NCBI GenBank assembly: GCA_018456245.1
Contig: JAGYHQ010000005.1
Span: forward strand, 1-61,684
Source of the DNA: Tenacibaculum sp.
GTDB taxonomy: Bacteria > Bacteroidota > Bacteroidia > Flavobacteriales > Flavobacteriaceae
Length of the DNA stretch: 61,684 bases
Direction: 5' to 3'
Numbering within the stretch: the stretch's first letter is position 1; the number at the start of each line of letters is the position of its first letter. Under the pieces are notes generated by a model. The model was not told where the DNA came from, ran no database searches, and saw only the letters and a program-made list of their open reading frames with translations. Below are positions 42,719 to 47,099 of the stretch, piece after piece. The translations under genes were made by a program, and so were the position numbers.

Positions 42719-43333
42719 ATGGAAAAAGTCTTCGTTATAGGTATTGCTGGAGGTACAGGTAGTGGAAAAACAACTGTAGTAGAAAAAATTTTAGATGAAT
42801 TACCAACTGATGAAGTTTGTGTAATATCTCAAGATTCATATTACAAGGCTACCGATAATTTATCATATGAAGAAAGAATACTTATAAATTTTGACCATCC
42901 AAAAGCTATTGATTTTGACCTTTTAACATCACACATTAAAAGTTTAAAAGAAGGAAATATTATTGAACAACCTGTTTACTCTTTCAGAACTCACAACAGA
43001 ACTAAAGACACCATTAAAACACATCCTGCAAAAGTTATTATTATTGAAGGAATTTTAATTTTCACTAATGAAGAATTACGTAATTTATGTGATATTAAAA
43101 TATTTGTTCATGCAGATGCTGATGAAAGATTAATTAGAAGAATAAAAAGAGATATTGCGGAACGAGGAAGAAATGTTGATGAAGTTTTATCTCGTTATAA
43201 AACTACATTAAAACCAATGCATCAAATGTTTATAGAACCTACGAAAGTATTAGCTGATATAATTATACCTAATGACCGTTATAATGATGTTGCCATTAAT
43301 GTTGTTAGAACTGTTATTAATGAACGATTATAA
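42719..43333 (+). CDS. udk: Uridine kinase
   Basis: A 204-residue P-loop kinase that phosphorylates uridine and cytidine in pyrimidine salvage. The P-loop GGTGSGKTTV is at 11-20, followed by VISQDSYYK near 35-43, FDHPKAIDFDLL near 58-69, and the lid RRIKRDIAERGRN near 130-144. It complements the cytidine deaminase at 56249 in salvage. The divIC-like gene starts 3 bases after its stop. Confidence 0.95.
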   Translation: MEKVFVIGIAGGTGSGKTTVVEKILDELPTDEVCVISQDSYYKATDNLSYEERILINFDHPKAIDFDLLTSHIKSLKEGNIIEQPVYSFRTHNRTKDTIKTHPAKVIIIEGILIFTNEELRNLCDIKIFVHADADERLIRRIKRDIAERGRNVDEVLSRYKTTLKPMHQMFIEPTKVLADIIIPNDRYNDVAINVVRTVINERL

Positions 43334-43336
43334 ATT

Positions 43337-43651
43337 ATGAGCTTAAAAGAAATGAAAAAAAACAGATTTTTTAAAATCATAACTAATGTATACGTTATAA
43401 TTTTAACGGTGTTTACCATTTGGATGTTGTTTTTTGATGAAAATTCATATTTAAACCATAGAAAATTTAATAAAGAAATTAATGAATTAGAAACTTGGAT
43501 TAAGTATCATAAACAAAAAATAAAAGAAGATAAAGAAACTATAAAAAACCTACAAGACTCTTTAGAATTAGAACGATACGCCCGTGAAAAGTATTTAATG
43601 AAAAAAGAAAATGAAGATATTTATCTTATAGAGTTTAATAAACAAAAATAA
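43337..43651 (+). CDS. FtsB/DivIC-like septum formation initiator
   Basis: A 104-residue bitopic protein. A short basic cytosolic N-terminus, one membrane helix (about 13-30, IITNVYVIILTVFTIWMLFF), and a periplasmic coiled coil (about 42-82) are followed by a short region with YAREKYLMKKENEDIYLIEF, the FtsB/DivIC hallmark. It should form the FtsQLB-like complex that regulates septal peptidoglycan synthesis. Its stop shares one base with the start of the next gene (TAATG), giving translational coupling to the mutase small-subunit gene, an order that is usual in flavobacteria. Confidence 0.88.
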   Translation: MSLKEMKKNRFFKIITNVYVIILTVFTIWMLFFDENSYLNHRKFNKEINELETWIKYHKQKIKEDKETIKNLQDSLELERYAREKYLMKKENEDIYLIEFNKQK

Positions 43652-44988
43652 TGAGTAGTTATTTATTTGAAGGTACATCTCCTAAAAAATGGAAACAAAA
43701 AATACAAGTAGATTTAAAAGGAGCTGATTATAATACATTACTGTGGCATACAAATGAAAAAATCATTGTAAAACCTTTTTACACAAAAGAAGACAGAACT
43801 CATCAACAAATAAATATCCCTCAAAATGATTTTTGTGTTTGTCAATCATTTTTTATTGATAATGAAGAAATTACCAATTCATTAGCCAATAATGCATTAA
43901 AACACGGAGCAACCTCAATCTATTTTCATACTAAAAATACTTTTAATTATAAAAAAGTATTGAAAAATATTGATATCAATTCCACAAAAATATATTTTAA
44001 TTTTTCTTTCCTAAACCCTGATTTTATAGCTGAATTATCAAATTTTTGTAATTCAAAAAATATTTATTTTAATATTGATATTATTGGCAATTTAGCAAAA
44101 ACAGGTAATTGGTTTGTTAACTTAAAAGATGACCATAAAAATTTAGAAAAAATTATTTCTACCACGAATAATTGTATTGGTGTTAATTTATCAATATATC
44201 AAAATTCAGGAGCTAATATTGTTCAACAATTAGCCTATACCCTAGCCCATGCTAACGAATATCTTAATTATTTTGGCAAAGAGGCAAGCAATGAAATACA
44301 TTTTTATTTTTCAGCAGGAAACAATTATTTTTTTGAAATAGCCAAATTAAGAGCTTTTAGAATTTTATGGAGCTCTCTTTTAAAAATATACGAGGCTAAA
44401 AACACACCTGCACATATTTTCGCAGAGCCAACTTTACGTAATAAAACCCTATATAACAACAATATAAATAAATTACGAACAACAACTGAATGTATGAGTT
44501 GTATTTTAGGAGGGGCAGATACTATATCAAATAACGCTTATAATAAAATTTTTCGTAAATCAAATGAATTTAGTGAACGAATAAGTAGAAATCAATTATT
44601 AATTTTAAAAGATGAATGTGAGATATCATCTAATAAAAATATTGTAGACGGCTCTTATTATATTGAAGAAATTACACAACAATTAGCTGAAAAAGCATTA
44701 GAAATATTTAAACTAATTGAAAAAGGAGGAGGTCTTTTAAAACAATTAAAAGAGGGAGTAATTCAACGAAAAATTCAAGAATCGGCAGATAAAGAACAAC
44801 ATCAATTTAATTCTGAAGAATTGGTTTTAATTGGAACAAACAAACATCAAAATAAATTTGAAAAAATAAAAGACGATTTAGAATTATATCCGTTTGTAAA
44901 AATTCGTGCTAAAAAAACATTAATTCAACCAATTATACAAAGAAGATTATCAGAAAAATTAGAACAAGAACGATTAAAAAATGAGTAG
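43651..44988 (+). CDS. mutA: Methylmalonyl-CoA mutase small (beta) subunit-like protein
   Basis: A 445-residue protein covering the TIM-barrel part of the mutase, without a cobalamin-binding domain, as is normal for the small subunit. It starts with FEGTSPKKWKQKIQVDLKGA, contains NNAYNKIFRKSNEFSERISR near 290-310, and ends with the family tail ELYPFVKIRAKKTLIQPIIQ plus RRLSEKLEQERLK. In characterised enzymes this subunit is non-catalytic and pairs with a large subunit that holds coenzyme B12. Here the partner gene, overlapping by 8 bases, is reduced and also lacks the B12 domain, so catalysis by the pair is doubtful. Confidence 0.85.
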   Translation: MSSYLFEGTSPKKWKQKIQVDLKGADYNTLLWHTNEKIIVKPFYTKEDRTHQQINIPQNDFCVCQSFFIDNEEITNSLANNALKHGATSIYFHTKNTFNYKKVLKNIDINSTKIYFNFSFLNPDFIAELSNFCNSKNIYFNIDIIGNLAKTGNWFVNLKDDHKNLEKIISTTNNCIGVNLSIYQNSGANIVQQLAYTLAHANEYLNYFGKEASNEIHFYFSAGNNYFFEIAKLRAFRILWSSLLKIYEAKNTPAHIFAEPTLRNKTLYNNNINKLRTTTECMSCILGGADTISNNAYNKIFRKSNEFSERISRNQLLILKDECEISSNKNIVDGSYYIEEITQQLAEKALEIFKLIEKGGGLLKQLKEGVIQRKIQESADKEQHQFNSEELVLIGTNKHQNKFEKIKDDLELYPFVKIRAKKTLIQPIIQRRLSEKLEQERLKNE

Positions 44989-46204
44989 AAAAGATATATC
45001 AAATATAGTTCTTGATAAGAGTAAGAATACGGAAGTAAAAACTCTTAAACACGAAGATTTTATTGCTGGAATTGCACCTTATTTAAGAGGTATTTATTCT
45101 ACAATGTATGTTCTTAATCCGTGGGATATTAATCAGTATTTAAATTTTTCTGAAATAACTAAAAAGAACGTCATTAATAATGTTGATGATATGAAAGATT
45201 GTTTGAGTAAAATTTCTATAAAAGAAAACCCTATTTCTTTTAATATGGATGAAAATATTTTACCATTTTTAGCTTTTTATATAATTGCTAGTGAAGAACA
45301 GGGCATTAAACAACAAGAATTAAAAGGTATTATTCAAAATAATATTTTCACTTTTCCTCTCTCCTATTCAATTAAAATAATTAAAGATATTATTGAATAT
45401 ACGAATAAAAATATACCTGACTTTAATCCTATTTCTATCGCTGGTTATAAAATCCAAGAAGATAAAACTACTGAAGAAATTGAATTAGCACATTCTTTAG
45501 CATATGCTATAAATTACATTAAAAAAGGACTAAAAATAGGTTTAAATATAGACGAACTTGTCTCAAATATTTCACTAACTTTATCTGTTGGAATAAATCA
45601 TTTTAGAGAAATAGCAAAATTAAGAGCTTGCAGAATGTTATGGGCACACTTAATTAAAGAATTTAATCCTAAGGAAAAATCATTAGCTTTAAAAATACAT
45701 TGTAAAACCAATGATTACAGTTTAACCAAACAAGATATACCTAACAATATAACTCGTACAGTAACTAAAACTATGGCTGGTATTTTAGGAGGTGTTCAAA
45801 GTTCACAAACAAACTCTTTTAACAAAAAAATACAATTATATTTACAACAAGAAACCAATATTACAAAAACGATAGATCCTTGGGCAGGTAGTTACCATCT
45901 AGAACAATTAACTGAAGATATTTACAATAAAACATTAAAAATAATTAATGAAACTGAAAATTTAGATGGAATAACAAAAGTTCCTGAAAAAGAAATTAAA
46001 AAAATATCAAATAATACTTTAAATTGTAATAAAACAGATAAAAATAGATTTAAAAGAGATGAAAACAATGTTAAAAAATCATTAGAAAATTTAACAGAAA
46101 GTATTGAGTCAGGAAAAGGAAATTTATTACATTTAGCGGTTATATCTGCAAAAAATAGGGCTACCTTAAATGAAATCTTAAGTGCTTTAAAAAGTGTAGA
46201 TTAG
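44981..46204 (+). CDS. Reduced methylmalonyl-CoA mutase large-subunit-like protein lacking the B12 domain
   Basis: A 407-residue open frame derived from the mutase large subunit, usually about 700 residues. Clear family segments remain: GIAPYLRGIYSTMYVLNPWD at 30-49, LAFYIIASEEQG at 97-108, FNPISIAGY at 148-156, FREIAKLRACRMLWA at 208-222, DPWAGSYHLEQL at 299-310, and GKGNLLHLAVISAKNRAT near the end. Missing are the stretch between NQYLNFS and DDMK (about 50 residues in the family), the EFMVRNTYIYPPE region holding an active-site arginine, a segment after SSQTN, and the whole cobalamin domain. The active-site His of SGYHMQE is Lys157 here, and SLHTN is SSQTN. There is no internal stop and no domain remnant before psd. 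It is likely a non-catalytic protein under selection, or a gene early in decay. Confidence 0.85.
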   Translation: MSRKDISNIVLDKSKNTEVKTLKHEDFIAGIAPYLRGIYSTMYVLNPWDINQYLNFSEITKKNVINNVDDMKDCLSKISIKENPISFNMDENILPFLAFYIIASEEQGIKQQELKGIIQNNIFTFPLSYSIKIIKDIIEYTNKNIPDFNPISIAGYKIQEDKTTEEIELAHSLAYAINYIKKGLKIGLNIDELVSNISLTLSVGINHFREIAKLRACRMLWAHLIKEFNPKEKSLALKIHCKTNDYSLTKQDIPNNITRTVTKTMAGILGGVQSSQTNSFNKKIQLYLQQETNITKTIDPWAGSYHLEQLTEDIYNKTLKIINETENLDGITKVPEKEIKKISNNTLNCNKTDKNRFKRDENNVKKSLENLTESIESGKGNLLHLAVISAKNRATLNEILSALKSVD

Positions 46205-46220
46205 AAGAAGACAGAATAAA

Positions 46221-47099
46221 ATGCAAATAAAATTTATAGATAGAAAAACGGGAGAAATAAAAATAGAAACTCCACCTGCTGAAAGAACTTTAAAGTTTTT
46301 ATATGATAATCCTTTCGGTAGAAAAGCTATTTTACCTATTATAAAACGTAAATTTATTTCTAGAAAGTATGGTGCAAAAATGAACAAACCATCTTCTACT
46401 AAAAAAATTCAGAAATTTGTAAATCAGTTTAATATTGATATGAGCGAATTTGAAAAATCAATTCCTGAATTTACTTCATTTAATGATTTTTTCTACAGAA
46501 AATTAAAACCTAATGCTCGTAAAATTGAAGACGGATTTGTATCACCTAGCGATGGGAGATTATTGGCTTTTGAAGATATTTCTGACATAGATAGTTTTTT
46601 CATAAAGGGAAGAAAATTTACTTTAACAGAATTTTTAGAAGACGAACAATTAGCCGAGAAATATAAAAATTCATCATTATTAATACTACGTTTGGCTCCT
46701 AATGATTATCATAGATTTCATTTCCCTTATAATGGCACCCCTTCGGAAACAAGAAAAATAAGAGGAAGATATTTTTCAGTATCACCATATGCTTTAGCCA
46801 GCAATTTTGCTAGAGTTTTTTGTGAAAACAAACGAGAATTTTGCACCCTTTCTACTAAACAAAAAGGAGATATTATTATAGCCCCTGTAGGCGCAACAAT
46901 GGTTGGTAGTATTTTTAAAACCTATGAAGCAAATAAACCAATAAAAAAAGGAGATGAAATGGGATATTTTGCCTTTGGAGGTTCAACAATTGTAATGTTG
47001 ATTGATAAAGATAAAATTACTATTGATGAAGATATTTTAAAAAACACCAGTAACAAAATAGAAACATTTGTAAGAATGGGAGAAAGTATAGGTAAATAG
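46221..47099 (+). CDS. psd: Phosphatidylserine decarboxylase
   Basis: A 292-residue decarboxylase of the Psd type that yields phosphatidylethanolamine. The self-cleavage motif is GGST at 253-256, where the serine becomes the pyruvoyl group; SPSDGR around 108-113 and DYHRFHFPYNG at 162-172 provide the Asp and His of the processing machinery. The region around 222-232 (APVGATMVGSI) is typical. It is the longer soluble-like form without strong membrane helices. It starts 16 bases after the mutase-like gene and acts downstream of cdsA in phospholipid synthesis. Confidence 0.95.
   Translation: MQIKFIDRKTGEIKIETPPAERTLKFLYDNPFGRKAILPIIKRKFISRKYGAKMNKPSSTKKIQKFVNQFNIDMSEFEKSIPEFTSFNDFFYRKLKPNARKIEDGFVSPSDGRLLAFEDISDIDSFFIKGRKFTLTEFLEDEQLAEKYKNSSLLILRLAPNDYHRFHFPYNGTPSETRKIRGRYFSVSPYALASNFARVFCENKREFCTLSTKQKGDIIIAPVGATMVGSIFKTYEANKPIKKGDEMGYFAFGGSTIVMLIDKDKITIDEDILKNTSNKIETFVRMGESIGK

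Follow-up and report, generated by a model that had tools for sequence, protein, structure and literature searches.

A methylmalonyl-CoA mutase locus in Tenacibaculum that may have become a B12-free pseudoenzyme pair

In the Tenacibaculum sp. window (the whole stretch of DNA analysed, 61,684 nucleotides), the gene for the small subunit of methylmalonyl-CoA mutase, mutA, is followed by a mutB gene reduced to a remnant of 407 residues. We consider it probable that this former AdoB12-dependent mutase has turned into a B12-free pseudoenzyme pair, in which MutA would have a non-mutase role and MutB would have been trimmed to its partner; the binding and the function are what we infer. This reading explains the locus best because comparable pairs recur in the family, above all in Capnocytophaga.

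The window locus and its genome

The mutB remnant (44981..46204, + strand; defined by open frame and alignment) lacks the B12 domain, and its active site is destroyed. The first-pass annotation had described an open 407-codon derivative of MutB, and so it proved: the frame has zero stops and matches PF01642 at 6.7e-94 (315.7 bits, above the gathering score of 22.1). The N-terminal domain model TIGR00641 was also above its cut-off (315.5 vs 303.8 bits), and the NCBIfam equivalog NF006944 was below (361.2 bits vs 876). The mutA gene (43651..44988, +; 445 aa) is full-length for the genus and under purifying selection at a normal level. As annotated, the two genes overlap by 8 bases (44981..44988, +), an overlap shared with the intact loci of G017, G018 and G009. 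Upstream lie udk and divIC (42719..43651, +), and the udk-divIC-mutA order matches that of relatives. Downstream lies psd, coding for phosphatidylserine decarboxylase (46221..47099, +); the mutB-psd order was found in four of the five relatives compared, the exception being G009. The remnant stop codon and the 16 bases up to psd (46202..46220, +) hold no counterpart of the intact C-terminus. In T. skagerrakense, a 220-aa open reading frame lies between mutA and mutB (L095:5238-5900) and overlaps each of them by 8 bases.

Deletions were placed by alignment to the T. skagerrakense MutB (687 aa). The first removed 42 residues (intact 64-105; junction at 45169..45170, +); about 50 had been reported missing near the N-terminal barrel, so that the deletion was real and its size overestimated. 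The second removed nine residues (165-173, LKEFMVRNT; junction at 45346..45347, +), which accounts for the reported absence of the arginine-containing VRNTYIYPP region. Residue 283 and a 14-residue segment (337-350; junction at 45832..45833, +) are also missing. In the linker, residues 421-431 and 435-465 are absent (about 42 residues, with the exact placement varying between alignments). All internal deletions comprise whole codons. Finally, the remnant lacks intact residues 516-687 with the entire B12 domain, and a Pfam scan of the gene gave no PF02310, in agreement with the annotation. The frame had been said to end exactly at the barrel-linker boundary, which is true only approximately, as the post-barrel linker helices persist (aligned to 466-515).

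The substrate site has changed as well. SGYHMQE reads AGYKIQE, and the alignment bore out that Lys157 (AAA codon, 45449..45451, +) occupies the position of the catalytic His. RRPWTIRQY reads LNPWDINQY; Arg46, Thr49 and Arg51 are gone, and the Tyr of RQY, presumably the catalytic Tyr89 of P. freudenreichii, is retained. We take RRPWTIRQY, VRNTY and SGYHMQE to be the substrate and radical-chemistry residues of the mutase. Judged from its sequence, the window MutB remnant is dead as a mutase. Its identity to intact MutB is 51-54%, against a mean of 89% among the intact species themselves. Structure models of the MutB remnants predict that a TIM-barrel-like fold survives, with part of the N-terminal arm at low confidence in both models.

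The window genome (1.59 Mb, 56 contigs) is 96.5% complete, and up to 3.5% of it may be missing from our searches. Profile searches of this genome returned no second PF01642 gene and no match to PF02310, MeaB or the epimerase TIGR03081; a full MutB elsewhere in it was thereby ruled out. Among the 59 genomes searched, the window genome included, PF02310 was found in 56, MeaB in 54 (53 above cut-off, some solely via fused mutases) and the epimerase in 55 (49 above cut-off). Loss of B12 in the window genome, one of the possibilities raised by the annotation, is thus supported. We also observed that weak TIGR03081 matches in ~390-aa frames, common among relatives, are missing here too; the TIGR03081 blank in so small a genome hints at further pathway loss. 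Known mutase large subunits, such as those of P. freudenreichii (1REQ/5REQ) and human MMUT, combine PF01642 with PF02310. The remnant differs from them in its missing domain, in its deleted or replaced catalytic and substrate-site residues, and in a genome where searches found neither MeaB nor the epimerase nor a further mutase. The large subunit of 2-hydroxyisobutyryl-CoA mutase (4R3U, 584 residues) works with a separate B12 subunit, whereas our search of the window genome detected no B12-binding domain at all.

The window MutA, full length and 61-67% identical to ten relatives, is an ordinary Tenacibaculum MutA. It is 66% identical to that of T. skagerrakense, near the level among intact species (mean 71%, range 62-92, nine genomes). 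It differs from a mutase small subunit in its partner, and because that chain is dead it is unable to serve a mutase. The orthologue is short genus-wide, with open frames of 443-468 aa in the 34 genomes, of 35 in the genus, that gave a match; most matches run from residue 1-7 to residue 443-445, and in G029 and G034 there is a longer copy in addition. Because the orthologue is short throughout the genus, we regard a short MutA without the B12 domain as the ancestral state in Tenacibaculum. The annotation was correct that both chains lack this domain, but they were not reduced jointly. The window MutA scored below the NCBIfam equivalog TIGR00642 cut-off (178.4 bits vs 617.25), and the intact MutAs of the genus are equally short. 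In the MutA tree, its terminal branch is roughly threefold longer than that of T. adriaticum, the nearest relative (0.34 vs 0.11), although its omega is not raised.

Selection on the two chains

We fitted a home-made codon model jointly to mutA, mutB, psd and udk in 12 taxa, namely the window and 11 of the 80 named loci, using four of the five aligned genes, with branch lengths shared and one scale per gene; the mutB columns were those kept in the window. A 9-taxon, 5-gene set comprised nine of 11 taxa (G022 and G027 omitted) without the infC fragments, and one joint fit was made without divIC. All omega values are approximate, owing to the model and to the long window branch (~1.4 substitutions per site), part of which predates the loss; we found no sequence closely related to the window remnant.

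For mutA, omega in the joint model was 0.085 in the background, 0.102 in the window and 0.142 in T. piscium, which carries a reduced MutB of its own. The corresponding values were 0.045, 0.327 and 0.574 for mutB, 0.084, 0.093 and 0.069 for psd, and 0.033, 0.086 and 0.049 for udk, so that the rise for mutB is ~7-fold in the window and reaches 13-fold in T. piscium. The window mutA is not relaxed: its omega does not differ from background (2ΔlnL 1.1 with 12 taxa, 0.3 with nine), and equality with the window mutB was rejected (78.9 and 87.6). For the window mutB, both the background value (125.2 and 159.0) and omega = 1 (56.5 and 43.5) were rejected. In T. piscium, mutA is somewhat relaxed against background (7.4 and 15.7) and again unlike its mutB (72.3 and 75.9), for which omega = 1 was rejected with 12 taxa (8.8) but, at an omega of 0.83, not with nine (1.0).

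Fitted gene by gene in the same nine taxa, the window values were 0.148 vs 0.083 for mutA (2ΔlnL 2.6), 0.262 vs 0.053 for mutB (28.6; against 1, 33.7) and 0.168 vs 0.057 for psd (5.0); those of mutA and psd hint at a mild general relaxation in the window genome. Acceleration of the whole genome was considered as a cause and rejected, since thrS is 89% identical to that of T. skagerrakense and the joint fit places psd close to its background omega, which the single-gene fit of psd does not.

The open frames and the kind of residues exchanged point the same way. After simulated neutral change of 0.1 per site, the window frame (starting from T. skagerrakense) acquired a mean of 9.7 stops, with a probability of 0.0005 of none, and that of T. 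piscium (starting from T. finnmarkense) a mean of 6.0, with a probability of 0.0015; both real frames have none. Among the columns that do not vary between the other seven genomes analysed, 121 of 294 have changed in the window, with a mean BLOSUM score of -0.05 against a neutral one-step expectation of -0.40 ± 0.13 (P 0.0015). In T. piscium, 60 of 175 have changed, with a mean of 0.12 against -0.40 ± 0.18 (P 0.0045). Such conservative changes would not be expected from protection of the frame alone. MutA is maintained, and the window MutB remnant is partly maintained, relaxed yet far from neutral, which upholds the earlier preference for selection.

The most serious competitor to a retained pair is pseudogenisation in progress, in which the operon decays after B12 loss with MutB ahead of MutA and both bound to vanish. 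The raised mutB omega, the accumulating deletions and the mildly relaxed MutA of T. piscium speak for it. Nevertheless, the unrelaxed window MutA, so unlike its MutB, and the open frames and conservative changes of both Tenacibaculum remnants speak against it. The annotation had offered a decaying pair as one option; the MutB remnant is indeed relaxed, but the two chains are not decaying together. It had also named dN/dS near 1 or frequent stops in similarly reduced relatives as evidence against selection. No internal stops or frameshifts were found in the remnants of the window, T. piscium, Abyssalbus, a Polaribacter MAG or 14 Capnocytophaga genomes, and the window remnant itself is well below 1; as described above, T. 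piscium gave a divided answer on neutrality, which was rejected in Capnocytophaga (omega 0.11-0.26).

Reduced pairs and gene loss in other Flavobacteriaceae

T. piscium (G008) has an intact MutA of 448 aa and a MutB of 259 aa lacking 64-209 and 403-687, and its sister T. finnmarkense has an intact MutB. A search of the T. piscium genome gave no MeaB or epimerase above cut-off and no other PF01642 gene; its one B12-binding domain lies in a 901-aa frame of MetH size. In Abyssalbus ytuae (G189; one contig, 100% complete), udk and divIC are followed by a MutA of 444 aa and a MutB of 214 aa, which aligns to intact 1-56 and 214-393; here too there is one B12-binding domain, in an 893-aa frame. The MutB of the Polaribacter MAG (L154:5349-6917; 522 aa) has a whole barrel and no B12 domain, with WTIRQY changed to WVIIQN and SGYHMQE to SDDHLQE. 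It is 73% identical to that of P. filamentus at a MutA identity of 82%, whereas the 13 intact pairs with MutA at 80-85% have MutB at 91.7% or more. It looks like this conversion caught at an early stage. As this genome holds a second MutB with a B12 domain, redundancy rather than B12 loss may have freed the old gene.

In Capnocytophaga (the genus of G079, assigned via named homologues), a mini-MutB of 156-244 aa was found in 14 of 20 genomes, each time preceded by MutA, in many cases a shortened one (frames of 349-458 aa or longer); the remaining six gave no match to the fast-evolving mini-MutB query. PF02310 was above cut-off in none of the 20, two of which had weak matches. Omega was tested in six of the 14 genomes (G079, G364, G372; G360, G373, G290), with the shared pair counted once. 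One pair gave 0.106, with omega = 1 rejected by 23.0 and 17 synonymous-only vs five nonsynonymous codons of 162, and two trios gave 0.251 and 0.262, with omega = 1 rejected by 69.2 and 39.7. When four minis were scanned with PF01642, L217 passed (24.4 bits vs 22.1), L211 remained below (10.5 bits), and L204 and L216 gave nothing; the family profile reached the Abyssalbus remnant at 1.1e-4. Together with the position after MutA, these matches make a thin case that the mini-MutB is a MutB homologue. For the minis, the predicted structure is a TIM-like barrel in which the arm has low confidence (pLDDT 74.4). Altogether, 28 protein clusters resemble the Capnocytophaga remnant; 27 have no Pfam domain, and the nine with a source name are all "hypothetical protein" of Capnocytophaga. 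One mini-MutB cluster, P0256, has 1095 member sequences from ENA, with neither name nor Pfam domain. Alignment A5 covers 13 of the 14 minis, A6 the window remnant and 62 other proteins, and A7 23 of the 29 matches of the mini-MutB family search.

In the MutA tree, built with 27 of the 80 named loci (G165 and two f5 rows also stand in the tree, uncounted), the remnant label changes four times, and three of the changes are forced by starred branches. A single joint origin of the remnants was rejected on this ground, and because the nearest relatives of three of them keep an intact MutB. The Abyssalbus and Capnocytophaga remnants may share one origin; long branches meet there.

Columns invariant in four remnants and two intact MutBs are M1, A29, G30, P33, R36, G37, Y43, I211, A212, R215, R218, L288, K296, D299 and P300, with the Capnocytophaga row aligning uncertainly. 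Apart from M1 and L288, they fall in the N-terminal arm (AGxxPxxRG and Y43), the EIA..R..R helix and the K..DP segment. In mutase dimers, the N-terminal segments rest against the other subunit, and such packing of the arm would fit a partner role for MutB.

Two genomes of another family (f5) have a solitary MutA-like protein of 383 or 392 aa after udk-divIC (L199:5117-6268, L200:5059-6237), with no MutB adjoining and a full MutB elsewhere; MutA may act alone there. In G165 (L201:4705-6069), a short contig carries udk, divIC and a MutA of 454 aa, with an unrelated gene next; a fused mutase aside, the search of that genome gave no MutB.

An intact-MutB match at E <= 0.001 was found in 272 of 299 family genomes, counting weak and partial matches and the window genome. 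We searched 30 genomes with PF01642: 27 family members in which MutB matched weakly or not at all, the intact G209, T. piscium and the 67%-complete G012, with seven further no-match genomes outside the set. Nothing was found in 24 of the 30. Among the 27 members, 23 had nothing, G078 had only a fused mutase, G165 had a fused mutase as well as MutA, and the reduced pair was present in G079 and Abyssalbus. Since 23 of 27 lack any PF01642 gene, loss of both genes is the usual fate, and any second role of MutA is dispensable in many lineages. Pseudogenisation draws further support from these numbers, against which stands a Capnocytophaga remnant kept in at least 14 of 20 genomes and under purifying selection in the sets tested. 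On balance we regard pseudogenisation as unlikely.

Possible roles of the retained pair

The mechanism that we propose for a retained pseudoenzyme pair starts from what the analysis shows: our searches of the window genome detect neither a mutase pathway nor a B12-binding domain, the large subunit has shed its cofactor domain and substrate site, and by the statistical tests its frame and protein chemistry stayed under selection and the small subunit retained its normal constraint. For a putative MutA-MutB heterodimer, what we observed is the overlap of the two genes and their shared retention. In our proposal, MutA would have a role independent of catalysis, and the trimmed MutB would persist because its N-terminal arm and late-barrel elements give MutA a structural partner. 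Rather than act on a substrate, the pair would probably serve as a scaffold or regulator that binds another protein or a CoA ester. In this reading, comparable conversions took place separately in other Flavobacteriaceae and are widespread in Capnocytophaga.

More tentatively, and at somewhat less than even chances in our estimate, the second, catalysis-independent function of MutA predates the loss of B12. Once the mutase reaction was unneeded at the locus, through lost B12 metabolism or through a second mutase as in the Polaribacter MAG, MutB would have been whittled to a cofactor-free partner and the pair would have persisted as a new complex, as in Capnocytophaga.

Two further explanations appear improbable. 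The mutB frame could be open only so that ribosomes reach the downstream psd without impairing it, the protein itself being useless. Indeed, psd starts 16 bases past the window remnant stop and 21 bases past that of T. piscium, and the frame is preserved while residues change, but this leaves both the normal constraint on MutA and the conservative changes of the remnants unexplained, and no psd was found beside the remnants of Abyssalbus and Capnocytophaga G079. Marginally less credible still is that the MutA barrel has acquired some enzymatic activity without a cofactor, such as one acting on acyl-CoA thioesters. It would agree with the normal MutA constraint and with the predicted TIM-barrel-like fold of the MutB remnants, but the 27 columns that nine retained forms of MutA have in common contain many Gly, Pro, aromatic and Leu residues and no conserved new catalytic set that we could see. 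That an artefact of the 56-contig assembly or of sequencing removed the segments is hardly credible, given an open frame with several whole-codon deletions and numerous substitutions where the genus is otherwise invariant, and given similar reductions in relatives. The protein cluster (P0001) stands for two contigs, which argues weakly against assembly error, since the contigs may come from separate assemblies or be duplicate records of a single one.

Pseudoenzymes can be kept as partners of other proteins. The window pair resembles these in that catalytic residues are gone and fold and sequence are under selection, and differs in that a former cofactor enzyme has retained its two chains, with no other mutase in the genome. 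In the part of the literature that our search covered, we found no description of such pair retention for methylmalonyl-CoA mutase. B12 mutases are treated as single-purpose, and their genes are assumed to vanish with the loss of B12. An annotation as "methylmalonyl-CoA mutase" calls for caution before propionate or B12 metabolism is inferred. If the repeated conversion to a B12-free pair is true, it would explain a nameless protein family and show that the small subunit does something else, which removal of the gene could reveal.
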